From NCBI GenBank assembly GCA_018303105.1, contig JAGVYU010000018.1, forward strand, positions 1-35,879: a stretch of DNA of 35,879 nt, in the 5' to 3' direction. The notes below the pieces were generated by a model. That model worked only from the letters and a program-made list of their open reading frames with translations, did no database searches and was not told the DNA's origin. This document shows, piece by piece, positions 17,245 through 28,244 of the stretch. A program made the position numbers and the translations under genes. Position 1 is the first letter of the stretch, and each line of letters begins with the position of its first letter. This stretch comes from Candidatus Woesearchaeota archaeon (GTDB taxonomy: Archaea > Nanobdellota > Nanobdellia > Woesearchaeales > JAGVYU01).

Positions 17245-18357
17245 TTACCCAAACGTAAACGTATACGCCATCAATCCCGGCTCTGAGAGTTCAATCGTGA
17301 GCTCATGCGTACCGTAGGTTTCATCTTGGATCAGCGGATATAAGTCAAAGTCCTTCACGATCATGGTGTTCACGAGCTGCCCATCTTTGAGAATGGTTAA
17401 TGTCATTGGCTTCGCCGCTCCCGCAACAAGATTCACATTTTTCGCAGTGTATTTTATGATTATTTTTCCCTGATTGCCTGTAAGCTCCATATTGTCATTA
17501 TGATTAAACCAGTCGCCCTCGAGATAAAACAGATCATCTTTAAGCGAGCTGGGAAGAGCATATGTCTGCAGTTTTTCAGGCTTCCATCCTTCTGTGTTTC
17601 CCATCTGTGATCGTTGGAATTCATACCCGAAGTAGATTTCGGGAGTCCCAATCTGTCCAAAATCAGGAAGCGACGCATTCGGCTGCGTGACACCTTCTTC
17701 CAAAACGGCATTGAGTTTAAGCACGCTGTTGCGCTCACGGAGCAATTCCTGAATTTTCTGCTCTGTTTCCTCATAACCGCCTTCGCCAATATGATCATAC
17801 ACGATAAACCCGTCGATGTCAATAAGGTATTTGTGCGGCCAATATCTGTTTTTATACGCACGCCACGTCTGCTTGTCATTGTCTTGCACAACGGGATATT
17901 CAACGCCATACTTATCCACGGCGCGCTTGACATTCTCATACTCCTCCTCAAACGCGAATTCGGGAGTGTGAACGCCAATGATAACTAGGCCATCAGCTTC
18001 ATACTTTTCCCACCACGCATTCAGATACGGAAGCGTTCTTTGGCAATTGATGCATGAGTATGTCCAAAAGTCGACAAGTACGATATTCTTTCCGATGTTC
18101 TCTCCAATAGTTATTGCCTCTGTATTGATATAACCCTCTGGAGAAACGAGCTCGACATAGTTTTGATATTGCTTTTCCTTGTCTTGCACACGCGAGGGAA
18201 TAAACGGCGCGGATTCCTCGGGCAATACGACATTTTGATTTTCACCAATCATAGCTACGTCTTGGGGAACTTGCTCGCGGGTTTTAGAGGACTCTAACAC
18301 CAAGATAGCACCGACTATGGCAACGATTACAACGACCGTGATAATTATTTTTTTCAT
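17245..18357 (-). CDS. DipZ-like thioredoxin-domain protein, extracytoplasmic
   Basis: A 370-aa membrane-anchored redox protein. Residues 5-22 are an uncleaved signal-anchor. Residues about 65-215 form a TlpA/AhpC-type thioredoxin domain with the redox pair Cys102-x-x-Cys105 in FWTYSCINCQRTLPYL, the hallmark of the DipZ periplasmic domain, and HKYLIDIDGFIVYDHIGEGGYEETE. Residues about 230-370 form a beta-rich C-terminal domain (DLFYLEGDWFNHND and AKNVNLVAG) as in DipZ. In bacteria DipZ fuses CcdA to this module; here the two halves are separate genes overlapping by 4 bp. It should receive electrons from CcdA and reduce extracytoplasmic disulfides or peroxides. Confidence 0.9.
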   Translation of the reverse strand: MKKIIITVVVIVAIVGAILVLESSKTREQVPQDVAMIGENQNVVLPEESAPFIPSRVQDKEKQYQNYVELVSPEGYINTEAITIGENIGKNIVLVDFWTYSCINCQRTLPYLNAWWEKYEADGLVIIGVHTPEFAFEEEYENVKRAVDKYGVEYPVVQDNDKQTWRAYKNRYWPHKYLIDIDGFIVYDHIGEGGYEETEQKIQELLRERNSVLKLNAVLEEGVTQPNASLPDFGQIGTPEIYFGYEFQRSQMGNTEGWKPEKLQTYALPSSLKDDLFYLEGDWFNHNDNMELTGNQGKIIIKYTAKNVNLVAGAAKPMTLTILKDGQLVNTMIVKDFDLYPLIQDETYGTHELTIELSEPGLMAYTFTFG

Positions 18358-19052
18358 TTTAAGAGCAACGCATTCACAAAGCCGAAATTAGCCACAAACC
18401 CAAGCGTTTGCGTAAACACAAGGATGCCCAGGAGGATGATGAGGATTCCGACAACGATGTTGAAGTATTTGAGGAACTTTTGCGAGCGATTAATCAACGC
18501 AAGCGCCTGCGTCGCGAATAATCCCACGAGCAGGAACGGAAGGCCAAGCCCTAAGCTGTATGCGAGCAATAGGAAAAAACTCTGGCCCGGTTGCGAAATC
18601 GCGAGCGCAAATACGCTCCCTAAGATCGCTCCAACGCACGGCGTCCAGCCGACGGCAAACGCGGCGCCGAAGACAAAGCTCGTAACATACGATATGCTGA
18701 ACTTCTTGACTGAAAATTTGTGCTCTCGCTCTAAAAAAGGAAGTTTGAGTAAACCGACAAGGTATAATCCGAACAAGATGATGATGACTCCGCCAATTCT
18801 TGAGAGCCACTCCTGAACTGTAAATGAGACTGTGCTCAATAGCGTGTTAAACAGCACTCCAAGAAGCGCAAACACGGACGCAAAGCCAAGCACAAAAAAG
18901 ACGCTGTTCAGGAACATTTTCACCCGGTTTGGATCCTTCAATGAAGTTCCAGAAAGATACGCGAGGAATCCTGGAATGAGAGGTAAGACGCAGGGACTGA
19001 GAAACGAGAATAATCCCGCGATGAACGCCGCGATGAGTGTGACTTCAACCAT
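18354..19052 (-). CDS. ccdA: CcdA/DsbD-type transmembrane electron carrier
   Basis: A 232-aa, roughly six-helix membrane protein of the CcdA family. The two redox cysteines are in the canonical places: Cys21 in LSPCVLPLIPG and Cys139 in GWTPCVGAILG. It moves electrons from cytosolic thioredoxin across the membrane to outward-facing thioredoxin domains. Its neighbours provide two such acceptors: the lipoprotein ending 1 bp upstream of its start and the DipZ-like protein overlapping its end by 4 bp. An AGGAAA stretch before ATG 19052 could be the ribosome-binding site. Confidence 0.95.
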   Translation of the reverse strand: MVEVTLIAAFIAGLFSFLSPCVLPLIPGFLAYLSGTSLKDPNRVKMFLNSVFFVLGFASVFALLGVLFNTLLSTVSFTVQEWLSRIGGVIIILFGLYLVGLLKLPFLEREHKFSVKKFSISYVTSFVFGAAFAVGWTPCVGAILGSVFALAISQPGQSFFLLLAYSLGLGLPFLLVGLFATQALALINRSQKFLKYFNIVVGILIILLGILVFTQTLGFVANFGFVNALLLK

Positions 19053-19053
19053 G

Positions 19054-19617
19054 TTAGTATTTCCTCAATTCTGTGAGATATCGCTGCTTGTCCCAGGTAT
19101 CGGGAGCCTTGAGCACTTGCTCCCCATTTTGGATAATGACTTTCGTATGCTGGTACGGAATGCCAAACTCGCGGGCCAACGAACTTTCAACTTCGTCAGT
19201 ATCACTGTCTTTATAGTTTACCCTGAATCCAACTATGTTTGGATTTTTAAGCTCATTAAAAGCTGCGAGCACATCCGGCTCCTCGGCTTTGCACAGCGGA
19301 CACCAATTCGCATAGAAATTCAGGAGAATAATCTTGTTTTCTCTAAGTGCCGTCTCGTAGTCACCTTGCGCAAATTCGTAATATGGCGACGTTGACCCAG
19401 CAAGCTTTGTTCCTGCATACCCTGAAGACTTCATTAATATTGCATCATCATCCGGTTCAGGCATCGCATTTTCCGTTATGGCATCATCAACCGGGGCAGC
19501 AACGGGTTGCTCTGTCTCCATCACAATTCCCTTTTCTTCCATCATTGCCTGATCCTGCGGAGCGCATGCGACAACAAACAACACAGCACACCAAGCCATA
19601 ACGATCATCGGTTTCAT
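19054..19617 (-). CDS. Thioredoxin-fold lipoprotein
   Basis: A 187-aa exported thioredoxin. The signal peptide ends in the lipobox VVACAP (lipidated Cys18), followed by an acidic Glu/Asp/Pro-rich linker and a thioredoxin domain with Cys106-Pro-Leu-Cys109 in FYANWCPLCKAEEP. The Trp-Cys-x-x-Cys and the adjacent Lys-Ala-Glu-Glu resemble reductive extracytoplasmic thioredoxins. The first ATG (19623) abuts the GGAGG ribosome-binding site; the second, ATG 19617, is six bases from it and gives a better signal peptide, so I choose it. It is the likely acceptor of electrons from CcdA, encoded immediately downstream. Confidence 0.9.
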   Translation of the reverse strand: MKPMIVMAWCAVLFVVACAPQDQAMMEEKGIVMETEQPVAAPVDDAITENAMPEPDDDAILMKSSGYAGTKLAGSTSPYYEFAQGDYETALRENKIILLNFYANWCPLCKAEEPDVLAAFNELKNPNIVGFRVNYKDSDTDEVESSLAREFGIPYQHTKVIIQNGEQVLKAPDTWDKQRYLTELRKY

Positions 19618-19628
19618 ACTCATCCTCC

Positions 19629-20579: not shown

Positions 20580-22184
20580 TCATTGAGGGTCTCCAGCAGA
20601 GACTTTATCCGTCATATAGATTAGCACAAATTTTGTGAGTGCTTGAATAAAAAAGTCAGTGAATTCTCTGTAATAATCACCCTTCCCTGTAACTAAATGC
20701 CCCAGTTCGTGAATATACGTGCTGGCAAATGCTTCGAGACTCTGCAGTTGCGACTGTTTAATTCCAATATATTCTTGACCATCAGGCGATCGAACATACA
20801 CTCCGTGTTGACTCTCTATTTCCCGACCTGTGTTCAAGAATAAACCAGAATAGACGCGTACGTCAACAGGAATGAGCTCCCCCAAGACAGTTTCCGTGAT
20901 CTCAGGGATTCTCTCCAGCATTCCAGTTTCAGCAGGAGTTAAATCTAATCGATCAACCCATCGATATTGCTTTTCAGTTGCAAGACTACTTGCTCGTTTG
21001 ATTCCAAGAATTCCAAGATAACAATCAAGATCAGAATTGAGCTTGACCGGATTAAATCCCATAAGCCTCGCATCGCTGTTCTCGTTAACATTGCTTGAAG
21101 CTAATACCGCGTTTTCTCCGTAGAGCTTCCTGAATACATCGACCCAGGGGTTAGTTTGAGTCTTGGGTATATCCATGCGCCTCCAAAGTTCCTTAAACTT
21201 CTCAGTTTCAGGATCATCTTTAGGTATCCTATAGTCTGCATAAATGAGGGAGCTCTGGGGACGCCGATCCCGCAATGCTTCGAATTCAAATCGATAGCAA
21301 CGATCCGTTTCGGCCTCGCGCAGCAATGTTTCAATGACAGAATGATCCGTACACTCCTTCAATATGCGTGCAATCTCATTCAGCAACGTTTCCCGGTCAG
21401 CAAACAATCTGTCAGGTGAAATGTTTTCCAATCCTAGATCATAACTGAAGATTGCACCCATAGTTTGTACTCTTACTCCTTTAATAAAGAGGCTCTTGTC
21501 TCCCGCGCCCAGATCAATAATACGTGGATGATATCTGGAAGGCCAATTACGATACAAACGCGTAGCATGCCGATTCTCAGGGGTGGAAGACCCTTCAGCG
21601 TAGATCACAGAGAATGAATCATTCAGTGCAAGCACTTTCTCGGGAATCTTGAATATTTCGCGCATAAGCTCCTTAGAGGGATTTCTAAAGACGGTTCGTG
21701 ATCCTTCGATATGATCACCATTTTCGGTGATGTGAAAGCAGAGCCGTTGCACCGCATGCTCATCAATACGCTCAGATTTTGCGTACGGGACTGCTATCCA
21801 GTTTTTTGAGCGGTATTCCACATCAATGCCACTGCGCAGCGCGGCTGCCGCAACAAGCTTAAGCCCTTCACCAAACTGCCCCACACTCATCACATCCGCA
21901 GCTTTCGGCGAGAAGAGCACAGACAATAATCCTGCGCTATACCCCGCACCATCATCCTCAAAGACCACCTCTTCTGCTGGCTTTGCTGGGTCTGCCCGCT
22001 TTAAGTCATACCACCGACCTTCCTGTTTGATCCTTACGGTCGTTTTAGAACCTTTACTGTCCGCAGGAAGATGATTGGAAATGCTGTCAAGAACGATGCG
22101 CTCTATTCCCCAGGCAAACCTCCGATAGTCCGTCGTCAGTGATGTTTCGATATCACACGTTGTGCTTGCCACGGGAAACCTCAT
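20580..22184 (-). CDS. GHKL-type ATPase fused to an HExxH metallopeptidase
   Basis: A 534-aa two-domain protein. The N-terminal about 230 residues carry the Bergerat (Hsp90/MutL/MORC) ATP-binding signatures: Asn37 in DSISNHLPAD (Mg2+-binding N box), VVFEDDGAGYS (Asp78-x-Gly-x-Gly81) and SVGQFGEGLKL (Gly102, Gly105, Gly107; ATP lid). A second part (about 230-440) includes a transducer-like strand pair, SLFIKGVRVQ. The C-terminus has YIHELGHLVTG (His492, Glu493, His496), a zinc-peptidase motif, followed by YYREFTDFF where Glu507 could be the third ligand. An ATPase that gates or allosterically controls a protease is the inferred design. No signal peptide. The start overlaps the 51-aa RHH gene by 32 bp. 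Confidence 0.85.
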   Translation of the reverse strand: MRFPVASTTCDIETSLTTDYRRFAWGIERIVLDSISNHLPADSKGSKTTVRIKQEGRWYDLKRADPAKPAEEVVFEDDGAGYSAGLLSVLFSPKAADVMSVGQFGEGLKLVAAAALRSGIDVEYRSKNWIAVPYAKSERIDEHAVQRLCFHITENGDHIEGSRTVFRNPSKELMREIFKIPEKVLALNDSFSVIYAEGSSTPENRHATRLYRNWPSRYHPRIIDLGAGDKSLFIKGVRVQTMGAIFSYDLGLENISPDRLFADRETLLNEIARILKECTDHSVIETLLREAETDRCYRFEFEALRDRRPQSSLIYADYRIPKDDPETEKFKELWRRMDIPKTQTNPWVDVFRKLYGENAVLASSNVNENSDARLMGFNPVKLNSDLDCYLGILGIKRASSLATEKQYRWVDRLDLTPAETGMLERIPEITETVLGELIPVDVRVYSGLFLNTGREIESQHGVYVRSPDGQEYIGIKQSQLQSLEAFASTYIHELGHLVTGKGDYYREFTDFFIQALTKFVLIYMTDKVSAGDPQ

Positions 22185-22308
22185 CCAGGTATTTTTGTGT
22201 AGCTAATTCAATAAAATGACTCTTGTTTCTAAAGATACCATTTTTGATTTTTTGTTCAACACTCTCCAATGTGTGGGTATCCATTGAGATTGAGACTTTG
22301 ACTTTCAT
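22153..22308 (-). CDS. Ribbon-helix-helix DNA-binding protein, 51 aa
   Basis: I translated this by hand. It begins MKVKVSISMDTHTLESVEQ and continues with a helix, the turn NGIFRNKSHFIELA and a second helix to YLDEV, which is the RHH (CopG/ParD-type) fold: N-terminal strand, helix, turn with Asn-Lys-Ser, helix. RHH proteins bind DNA as dimers and often autorepress. ATG 22308 is 30 bp from TTTATAAA at 22334-22341, and a 21-bp inverted repeat lies between box and start. The stop lies 32 bp inside the GHKL-metallopeptidase gene, so the two are co-transcribed and translationally coupled in the manner of antitoxin-toxin or repressor-effector pairs. Confidence 0.85.
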   Translation of the reverse strand: MKVKVSISMDTHTLESVEQKIKNGIFRNKSHFIELATQKYLDEVSRGKHNV

Positions 22309-22309
22309 C

Positions 22310-22341
22310 GTAAGAAGTAGGAATTCTTACTACTTTATAAA
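22310..22341 (-). promoter_or_regulatory. Promoter and inverted-repeat operator of the RHH/GHKL unit
   Basis: TTTATAAA (22334-22341) is the TATA box. GTAAGAA (22310-22316), seven bases and TTCTTAC (22324-22330) form a perfect inverted repeat covering the expected transcription start. Farther upstream (about 22351-22373) GTAAC occurs twice around TACTAGTTA. A dimeric RHH repressor bound at the repeat would block initiation. Confidence 0.65.
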
Positions 22342-22388
22342 TCTTTGCACTAAGTAACTACTAGTTAGTAACAGCACGTTTTAAGGCC

Positions 22389-25496: not shown

Positions 25497-28244
25497 TTAA
25501 TAAACCCTCATTCCATCAGCGATGTCAGCAGAAACCTCTTCCTTATCGGTCCGAAGCGGCTTTCCATCTATGAGAATCTTTTTGTGCTTAGTCACCATCA
25601 CGAGCTTTGAGAATTCTTCGTATTTAATCTCGGATTCATTCTGCTTCATACTATCCACACATACAATATCCCCCGGACTGCTCTTGGGCGCTTCCACGAG
25701 AGCGAGCGTTTCCTGGTCTTCGGATACCGCGGCGAGCAGCATACCCTTGCTTTCGATACCCCGTAATTTAGCGGGCTTCAGATTCGCGACAATCACAATA
25801 TTTTTTCCCGGCAGTTTATCAACATCATAATATCTTTTAATTCCCGCGACAATCTGTCGCTTCTCAGTTCCCAAGTCAACTTGCAGCACAACGAGCTTTT
25901 CAGCGTCAGGATGGGGATCTGCAGCAATGATTTTTGCAACACGCAGATTTAACGGAAATAAGCCGTTTCGCGTTGCTTCAAGAATCTTATATGATCCCCC
26001 GCAAAATTTCACGATATTCTCGCAAATCTCATTCAAGCCGTCTTTTAAAACATCATCACTCGTTTCTTTATTGCCTTGAACATACACCATCACATTTTTG
26101 GTTTTTTCATCAACTTTTGTATATTCACTTTGTTTTACGTTCAGCCTGCATAACACGTGCTTTTCGTCGGCACACGCATACTCTCCCTGTTCGACATTTT
26201 CCAGGCCCGCTTCACCAAGAGGGATATATTTCTCAGATCCGGTGGTTATTCGAAACTGTATTTTTCCATGTATTTTTGAGATATCATGCGCGCCTGCGGA
26301 GATCAGGCGTTTAACGGAAACCGGGTTATAAGAGTCTACTATCGTGTTGATATTAGGCAGCTTTCCTTTTTCCTTGATGAGTTTCAATAAATGATAGTAA
26401 GGCGGTTCAAAGGGTTTGTGGTTATAGAGCTTTTTGTCTTCTAAGTAGATTCCATCTCCGGTTACGTCAAAATTCTTTACTTGACCTTCCGTCTCTCTCT
26501 TCAACTTTTCAAGACCTTCATGCTTCTTCTTGCAGTTTACTCCGGTTAATTGAGCAACTGCGAACTTAAGTCCTAAACTACTGACCTTATCCTCAACGTC
26601 ATATTCGATAGGCGCAGACTTTTCATGCGGCGCTTCTTGAATAGCGTGCTCCTTCTTCTCAAACTTATGCATCACAATCTCCGCATTCCGCACAGAACCT
26701 TTGAATCCGAAACCGATATCCTTCCATTCAAGATGTTTTTCTCCGAGCTGTTCTTGAATCTTTTCTGCAAAAATGGGAAGGATTGGACTAATGAGGATGC
26801 TGAGATTCCTTGCGATGTTTGCACATAATCCAAGAATTGGAGCAGCCTCTTCCTTTGATTTTTTCCACGGCTGCTCATCCTGCATATATTTGTTGCCGAG
26901 CGCTCCCAACGCGAGGATCTCGCGCACCGTTTCACGGAAGTTATACTCTGCATAGAGTTTTTTCACGCGCTCGGCTCCATCAAGGAATGTTTTCTGTAAC
27001 GGTTCATTGCCCGCAACTTCTTTAATTTCTCCGTTATAGTTTTTTTGGATGAAGCTTAACACCCGATAGCAAAAATTCCCGATGTTTGCGACTAGCTCAT
27101 TGTTGATCGTATCCGAGAAGTCATCCCAGTCAAGGTTGATGTCCGAAAGCTTCTTGCTCAAGCCCTTCGCGTAATAAAACCTCAAATGCTCAGGGTTATA
27201 GAGCCGCACATAGTCTTCCGCGGTGAACAAACTGCCTCTGCTTTTGCTCATCTTCTCTTCCTTCTGTGTGAGGAAGCCATGCACAATGATATCTTTTGGC
27301 AGGTTGAATCCAATGCCCATCAAAGTAGCAGGCCAAAACAAAAAGTGGAAGTAAATGATGTCCTTACCAATGAAATGTATGATCTCTGCCTTGTCTCCCG
27401 TCCAATAGTCTTCCGCCTTTAATCCATGCTGTTTGCAATAGTTCTCTGTTGACGCGATGTATCCAATCGGGGCATCAAGCCAAACATAATAATACTTATT
27501 CTCCTCTCCCGGAATCTTAAACCCAAAATACGGGCCGTCTCGCGTGATATCCCAGTCCTCTAAGCCGTCTTTGATCCAATTGCGGATGAAGTTGATGATC
27601 TCCGGCTGCAGGTTTTTGTTCGACGTCAACCATGCATCAAGCTTTTCAGAAAACGCGCTGAGCTTGAAGAAATAATGCTCAGACTCTTTCCTCACTGGTG
27701 TGCTCTTGCATATCACGCAATACGGGTTGACGAGGTCAACGGTCTTGTACGCGGAATTGCATTTCTCGCACACGTCTCCATACTGGTCTTCAGCCCCGCA
27801 CTTCGGGCATGTTCCTTTGACATAGCGATCGGGAAGGACGCGCTTGCATTTTGGGCAGTACGTCTGCTCAATCGTTTTTTTGTATATGAATCCATTTTTT
27901 TTGAGGGTAAGGAAAAAATGATCAGAAAAGTGCTTGTTCTCGGGGGAATTTGTCGTGTAATAACTATCGAACTTTATGTGGAAGCGGCTAAAATCGTTTG
28001 TGTGCTCCTTATGAACTTTTTCAATAAGCTGCTCAGGCGTAATGCCGAGTTGTGATGCCTTGATCTCAATCGGAGCGCCGTGCGTGTCATCCGCGCAGCA
28101 GTAAATCACATCCTCGCCAATCAACTTAAGGAAGCGAACAAAAATATCCGTTTGAATATACTCCACTAAATGGCCTATGTGAATCGGGCCATTCGCATAC
28201 GGTAGTGCGCTTGTCACGAGTATTTTCTTTTTGAAGGGAATCAC
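25497..28244 (-). CDS. metG: Methionyl-tRNA synthetase with extra B3/4-like domain
   Basis: A 915-aa class I synthetase that charges tRNA-Met. The catalytic domain has PYANGPIHIGHL (HIGH at 22-25) and KMSKS at 331-335; four Cys-x-x-Cys knuckles (Cys130/133, 146/149, 159/162, 176/179) bind zinc as in archaeal MetRS. The anticodon-binding helices span about 385-525. Residues about 766-865 form the C-terminal OB-fold tRNA-binding domain (LRVAKIIAADPHPDAEKL, ANLKPAKLRGIESKGM). Between these, about 555-755 is a domain with LPNINTIVDSYNPVS, PLGE, VEQGEYACADEKHVLCRL and VMVYVQGN, which resembles the PheRS B3/4 fold. That insertion makes the protein about 200 residues longer than usual. TATA 28270-28277 is about 29 bp upstream. 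Confidence 0.96.
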   Translation of the reverse strand: MIPFKKKILVTSALPYANGPIHIGHLVEYIQTDIFVRFLKLIGEDVIYCCADDTHGAPIEIKASQLGITPEQLIEKVHKEHTNDFSRFHIKFDSYYTTNSPENKHFSDHFFLTLKKNGFIYKKTIEQTYCPKCKRVLPDRYVKGTCPKCGAEDQYGDVCEKCNSAYKTVDLVNPYCVICKSTPVRKESEHYFFKLSAFSEKLDAWLTSNKNLQPEIINFIRNWIKDGLEDWDITRDGPYFGFKIPGEENKYYYVWLDAPIGYIASTENYCKQHGLKAEDYWTGDKAEIIHFIGKDIIYFHFLFWPATLMGIGFNLPKDIIVHGFLTQKEEKMSKSRGSLFTAEDYVRLYNPEHLRFYYAKGLSKKLSDINLDWDDFSDTINNELVANIGNFCYRVLSFIQKNYNGEIKEVAGNEPLQKTFLDGAERVKKLYAEYNFRETVREILALGALGNKYMQDEQPWKKSKEEAAPILGLCANIARNLSILISPILPIFAEKIQEQLGEKHLEWKDIGFGFKGSVRNAEIVMHKFEKKEHAIQEAPHEKSAPIEYDVEDKVSSLGLKFAVAQLTGVNCKKKHEGLEKLKRETEGQVKNFDVTGDGIYLEDKKLYNHKPFEPPYYHLLKLIKEKGKLPNINTIVDSYNPVSVKRLISAGAHDISKIHGKIQFRITTGSEKYIPLGEAGLENVEQGEYACADEKHVLCRLNVKQSEYTKVDEKTKNVMVYVQGNKETSDDVLKDGLNEICENIVKFCGGSYKILEATRNGLFPLNLRVAKIIAADPHPDAEKLVVLQVDLGTEKRQIVAGIKRYYDVDKLPGKNIVIVANLKPAKLRGIESKGMLLAAVSEDQETLALVEAPKSSPGDIVCVDSMKQNESEIKYEEFSKLVMVTKHKKILIDGKPLRTDKEEVSADIADGMRVY

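Follow-up and report, generated by a model that had tools for sequence, protein, structure and literature searches.

A short putative ribbon-helix-helix gene with an operator-like promoter precedes a predicted GHKL ATPase-minigluzincin fusion in DPANN archaea

Gene arrangement at the locus

The window, i.e. the whole stretch of 35,879 nucleotides analysed here, is contig 24 in a woesearchaeal genome of 72 contigs (1.3 Mb). Two overlapping genes are located on its reverse strand. The upstream gene, rhh (22153..22308), encodes a predicted ribbon-helix-helix (RHH) protein of 51 aa, the putative autorepressor, which was recognised from the ORF list, Pfam RHH_1 and homologue alignments. The downstream gene (20580..22184, reverse strand) encodes the effector, a predicted fusion of a GHKL ATPase and a minigluzincin, which starts with ATG at 22184 (534 aa) or more likely with GTG at 22172 (530 aa). 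An earlier note on this DNA had described the two ORFs with an overlap of 32 bp. Both ORFs stand, but an overlap of 20 bp and an effector of 530 aa are more probable, since GTG 22172 lies six bases after a GAGG and corresponds in the alignment to the point where the nearest homologue, L050, begins (MSKTTYDIETS). No Shine-Dalgarno sequence precedes ATG 22184.

The TATA box of the rhh promoter is TTTATAAA (22334..22341, reverse strand), and most of the nine RHH loci described below share its position. Between TATA box and ATG lies the predicted downstream operator GTAGTAAGAATTCCTACTTCTTAC (22310..22333, reverse strand), recognised by alignment and by a composite pattern that is unique in the genome. 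It includes the 21-bp inverted repeat GTAAGAATTCCTACTTCTTAC (22310-22330) of the earlier note, which was confirmed, with perfect 7-bp arms, directly 5′ of the rhh ATG and after the TATA box. An upstream operator half is predicted from the promoter alignment 5′ of the TATA box, in the form of the palindrome TAACTAGTAGTTA (22355..22367, reverse strand).

Predicted structure of the effector

A GHKL (Bergerat) ATPase domain with a transducer-like region (residues about 8-260; 21405..22163, reverse strand) was delimited by model, fold matches and motifs. The ATPase residues are the acid D33, N37, D77, G79, G81, GQFGEGLK (102-109) and R259, and the GHKL signatures that had been called complete (N37, D77-D-G-A-G81, G102-Q-F-G-E-G107) were all found in place. 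These motifs are kept in 26 of 26 aligned rows, save for E instead of N37 in L066 and L077. Residue 33, the GHKL general-base position, is D in all cellular rows but one; L066 (Desulfofundulus) has E there, as do the phage rows. Pfam HATPase_c matched the window effector at E = 0.0038, below the cut-off. An AF2 model of the full effector built from 26 sequences reached a mean pLDDT of 85.1, with low pLDDT at residues 91-102, the position of the ATP lid. When this model was compared with the PDB by Foldseek, topo VI-B, the Hsp90 N-domain and MutL were the leading matches (probability 0.87-1.00), weak by E-value (best E = 0.0013). The Bergerat fold was thus found in the structure prediction, and the effector N-terminus is predicted to be a Bergerat-type GHKL ATPase that would bind and hydrolyse ATP.

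Alignment and model place a linking domain with the signature W..F..LYG..AV at residues about 340-405 (20970..21167, reverse strand), and AF2 and Foldseek a minigluzincin-like metallopeptidase domain at residues about 436-530 (20595..20879, reverse strand). The C-terminal 195 residues (340-534) were modelled by AF2 at a pLDDT of 92.4. The sole convincing PDB match of the C-terminal domain in Foldseek was proabylysin (4jiu; probability 1.00, TM-score 0.62 on the target), again weak by E-value (0.024). The model has the features of a zincin, with HExxH on an active-site helix, a backing helix and a beta-sheet, in agreement with the C-terminal zincin proposed before. The HELGH zinc-binding motif (residues 492-496; 20697..20711, reverse strand) was likewise confirmed at the C-terminus by alignment. 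Its H, E and H and a D at +7 are at least 90% conserved among 23 aligned C-termini, and HExxH is kept in 22 of the 23 copies with a complete C-terminus, being lost only in one tandem second copy. The nearly invariant D503 (HExxHx6D; 20676..20678, reverse strand) is a candidate third zinc ligand; a weak motif match to an M85-type enzyme also includes it in the alignment. From the model, the effector C-terminus is read as a predicted minigluzincin-like protease domain that would carry out proteolysis. Abylysin (PDB 4jiu), its best fold match, is a free-standing zymogen of 105 aa, whereas the effector domain is fused to an ATPase and has the conserved extra residue D at +7. As to the M78 (ImmA-IrrE) peptidases, Pfam Peptidase_M78 gave no match to the effector at E up to 1.

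Distribution of the effector family

The effector had no match in NCBIfam or among plasmids. Single-sequence scans of genomes and viral contigs gave no match either, whereas alignment-based scans did. When whole genomes were searched, 10 of 378 in the class sample and 15 of 371 in the phylum sample contained relatives. The alignment-guided scan added Woesearchaeota, Pacearchaeota, Micrarchaeota, one Parcubacteria genome, two Clostridia and Desulfofundulus, and matched 17 viral contigs; the named relatives are mostly Woesearchaeota and other DPANN archaea.

A homologue from a complete Moorella phage has 24% identity across 95% of the length, and phrog_6077 matched residues 12-365 of the window effector at E = 2.4e-10 and tested relatives down to 5e-46. 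The effector family matches the phage families PHROG 6077 and 8203 (function unknown), and many phage homologues likewise end in HExxH. The phage copies differ in having E, not D, at the general-base position; no RHH gene was seen with them, and many phage matches span the ATPase half only. A well supported branch of the tree separates the phage copies and that of Desulfofundulus from the others. A fold search against viral models returned a 437-residue protein as best match (E 4e-25), an Erwinia phage protein (1e-14) and a Sulfolobales filamentous virus protein (6.5e-11). It also returned rIIA proteins (E = 5e-6 to 6e-4), whose TM-scores relative to the query were 0.23-0.33 and which did not agree with it over the full length. 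As judged from these models, the effector family appears to be structurally related to phage rIIA. The T4 rIIA family (GHKL with a variable C-terminus; PMC7824862) has the GHKL ATPase in common with the effector, but its members are larger and have different C-termini, and full-length similarity is not convincing. The phage relatives are located in replication and early gene clusters, as expected for counter-defence or host take-over.

Double GHKL units with a single C-terminal HExxH in one chain were found in Clostridial, Parcubacterial, Micrarchaeal and one other archaeal copy (L029, L060, L062, L063, L064). In both Clostridia a conserved gene of 141-167 aa follows the double-GHKL effector. 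L027:6208-9781 holds a tandem effector pair, the second of which lacks HExxH (TRLGE) and has intact ATPase motifs. The AR15 copy contains one in-frame TAG (L026:6965-6967) and the G296 copy (L034) two, and the effectors of L030/L054 and L048 are split into two frames or pieces. TAG recoding was considered for AR15 and G296 and rejected, as no PylS match over the cut-off was found; these copies are therefore read as broken genes. Some broken copies may be assembly errors. No further gene is conserved beside the RHH-linked copies, which together with the patchy spread and the tandem and broken copies fits a costly accessory gene.

RHH partner and its substitutes

Pfam RHH_1 matched the window RHH protein at E = 0.0078, below the cut-off; homologues matched Pfam at E = 0.00099 (L026) and 0.00089 (L027; RHH_8). 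Alignments of 6 and 8 homologues gave the subfamily signature RNKSHFIExATxKxL. A sequence comparison of the window protein with solved structures yielded no match. Its best named NCBIfam match was CdrS (E = 0.005, far below the cut-off), a haloarchaeal regulator and likewise a small archaeal RHH protein (PMC7439475, PMC8406309); CdrS is a conserved cell-division regulator, whereas the window RHH is a patchy accessory gene.

An RHH gene lies 5′ of the effector in nine homologous DPANN loci, mostly of Woesearchaeota (window, L050, L026/L051 (AR15), L027/L052, L028, L030/L054, L031/L059, L032/L058, L055), and mostly overlaps the next gene. At one of them a gene for a putatively exported 230-aa HELSH protein, whose N-terminus is signal-like (L054:3297-3989), is inserted between RHH gene and effector and overlaps each of them by 4 bp. 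An AbrB/MazE-like gene takes the RHH position at L029 and L045/L053, and three phage homologues of the GHKL-HExxH type (L069, L070, L072) end in an AbrB/MazE-like tail; these assignments rely on weak Pfam scores (0.00044-0.028) or, for L029 and L069, which have no Pfam match, on similarity to the others. The AbrB-linked L053 nests within the RHH-linked part of the tree with weak support. No regulator gene was seen at the effector homologues L056, L057, L061, L065 and L034 or in bacteria, and L035, L048 and L049 form one syntenic clade without any regulator. RHH genes were found neither in viral contigs nor beside phage homologues. The partnership of RHH gene and fusion claimed from the window thus recurs in nine loci but is not exclusive, with AbrB-like genes at two loci, several homologues without regulator and no RHH gene found with the phage homologues. 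Nor is the RHH protein specific to the fusion, as the same RHH family precedes many unrelated genes. The RHH and AbrB-like genes and the AbrB/MazE-like phage tails suggest that small DNA-binding partners have joined the effector more than once, and that these are not always RHH.

Promoter and operator

The nine RHH genes all have the same promoter layout, in which a TATA box is flanked on both sides by TAGTA/TACTA-type repeats that end just 5′ of the ATG. In the alignment a TAGTAGTTAC-like element is located near -55, the TATA box near -30, and TACTACTTNTTNC stops two bases short of the ATG in most promoters. A TACTACTT-type element at a distance of up to 21 bp from the ATG was present in 8 of 8 loci scanned. 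This layout is kept at effector identities that mostly reach only 40-60%, and it is absent at the two AbrB-linked loci. The nine promoters contain 19 TAGTA/TACTA elements against a mean of 11.4 and a maximum of 21 in dinucleotide shuffles. As this count is not significant by itself, the argument for the GHKL-linked promoters is their common position and layout.

A composite pattern of TATA box and operator occurred once in the window genome and once in G361, both times at the RHH-effector promoter, and not at all in the reversed control; the exact pattern was too strict for the G246 and G273 promoters. A regulon in the window genome was considered and rejected: the short motif with one mismatch stayed below the reversed control, and the composite site is single. 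This uniqueness points to autoregulation rather than a regulon and is the strongest evidence for it, with binding of the RHH protein to DNA predicted from sequence. The repressor-effector module of the earlier note is supported by the RHH gene conserved 5′ in nine loci, the conserved operator-like promoter and the predicted Bergerat ATPase and zincin domains.

RHH genes in front of other effectors

Searching 378 genomes of the class with an RHH profile gave matches in 87 genomes at E up to 1e-9; the profile was built from most of the GHKL-linked RHH genes, and ranking these first is partly circular. We surveyed 61 RHH genes (L112-L171) not linked to a GHKL-protease. In 60 of them an ORF follows next on the same strand, overlapping in 50 (17 by 4 bp) and with a median length of 438 aa. 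Sixteen downstream genes belong to one AAA/MoxR-like cluster and five to one kinase cluster, while singletons include SNF2, ChaN/Tiki, RlaP and another GHKL protein. Many of the 61 promoters contain TAGTA/TACTA repeats, at 1.36 per 70 bp overall compared to 0.15 before 186 control ORFs, and the total of 83 significantly exceeds 200 dinucleotide shuffles (mean 43, maximum 58). Besides the gene in the window, another RHH gene of the same genome (L085:557-1617) precedes a 303-aa gene and has a promoter without TAGTA repeats.

RHH gene and TAGTA/TACTA promoter may together represent a reusable DPANN regulatory cap with dozens of unrelated large effectors behind it, an undescribed class of conflict or stress systems that would include the GHKL-minigluzincin, a family with members in phages as well. 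We hold this tentatively, at a little under an even chance. No description of such a class was found in the literature searched.

Proposed working and alternative explanations

The RHH-effector pair is real and beyond chance, given the conservation of HExxH and D at +7, the GHKL motifs in 26 rows and the recurrence of RHH in nine loci. It falls within the known kind of autorepressed small-regulator/effector pairs. As to its working, the reading we favour, at about even odds, is a mobile, self-repressed, ATP-gated protease effector module, probably in conflict or stress. The RHH protein would bind the TAGTA/TACTA repeats on either side of TATA box and transcription start, and its occupancy would block the promoter and keep the operon low. 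Such repression, predicted from the conserved anatomy, is the well supported part. The GHKL domain may bind ATP and close as a dimer via the transducer region, like an ATP-operated clamp, possibly triggered by some ligand, e.g. a foreign or damaged protein complex. Closure would probably deliver substrate to the minigluzincin (HExxHx6D) or open its active site; that it switches the protease is suggested by analogy to GHKL biology.

The protease target and the biological role we infer: the role is most likely in conflict or stress, as defence against viruses or other elements or as controlled self-damage. In favour of such a role, related RHH genes also cap MoxR AAA, kinase and SNF2 genes, and conflict systems are known to include MoxR AAA proteins that have vWA partners (PMC7159879). 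The effector had no match among the PADLOC defence families at E up to 1, and the defence-island neighbourhood that had been considered was not seen, the window neighbours being NUDIX, MetRS and thioredoxins.

A small repressor gene adjoining an HExxH protease gene is also known from IrrE/DdrO and ImmA/ImmR, in which IrrE cleaves DdrO and ImmA cleaves ImmR (PMC8072749). Accordingly, the ATP-gated protease might act as an antirepressor that cleaves the RHH (or AbrB) repressor and derepresses its own operon, and the different repressor fold (AbrB) in the same place at two loci and the AbrB/MazE-like tail fused onto three phage homologues would suit such a role. However, the pair described here has RHH or AbrB instead of XRE, a minigluzincin-like instead of an M78 protease, in line with the lack of a Peptidase_M78 match, and an added ATPase. 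Furthermore, no other operator target was found and no RHH gene occurs with phage homologues. At 44-51 aa the RHH protein is so short that it offers neither a linker nor a second domain for cutting, and RHH genes of its family also stand before genes that encode no protease. Cleavage is therefore possible but less likely, and we regard the antirepressor as improbable. Slightly more doubtful is a type II toxin-antitoxin system, in which the RHH protein would directly bind and neutralise a GHKL-protease that is toxic when freed. RHH type II modules have the same upstream overlapping RHH gene and operator repeats in the promoter (here seen as sequence features), and the gene order, the RHH/AbrB partner, the patchy spread and the broken effectors all agree with this. 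Against it, almost no C-terminal tail extends past the RHH core to wrap a toxin, the predicted ATP-dependent effector is far larger than usual toxins, and several homologues have no partner. The very short RHH belongs to a family common to many unrelated effectors; since related RHH genes precede unrelated enzymes, direct binding to each effector is unlikely.

The least probable of these alternatives is a housekeeping role for a specialised chaperone or an rIIA-like protein of viral origin, whose protease domain would mainly bind peptides and whose dose is all that the RHH gene would set. It draws on the phage relatives in replication and early gene clusters, on the rIIA and Sulfolobales filamentous virus proteins among the structural matches, on a Sulfolobus virus that is reported to have a GHKL protein (PMC6105669) and on the syntenic clade without regulator (L035, L048, L049). 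Retention of HExxH in nearly all complete C-termini favours catalysis over peptide binding, however, and the patchy spread and broken copies speak against housekeeping.

For the self-repressed protease module, no named system with this exact pair was found in the literature or family libraries searched, as the earlier note had presumed, and the available parts of a MORC paper and a dark-matter paper do not describe it. Three features were not reported together in the literature searched: the GHKL-zinc protease fusion, the tiny self-repressing RHH cap with conserved operator, and phage relatives of the rIIA kind. If the proposal is true, it provides a testable handle on the function of rIIA-like GHKL proteins, and one interchangeable promoter-repressor cassette may serve to control large effectors in the DPANN archaea, a group rich in dark-matter genes.

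Other genes in the window

Elsewhere in the window, 25497-28244 encodes a methionyl-tRNA synthetase that has an additional B3/4 domain and, at its C-terminus, a tRNA_bind domain. At 17245-19623, genes for thioredoxin-like proteins are clustered about one for a membrane protein resembling CcdA.
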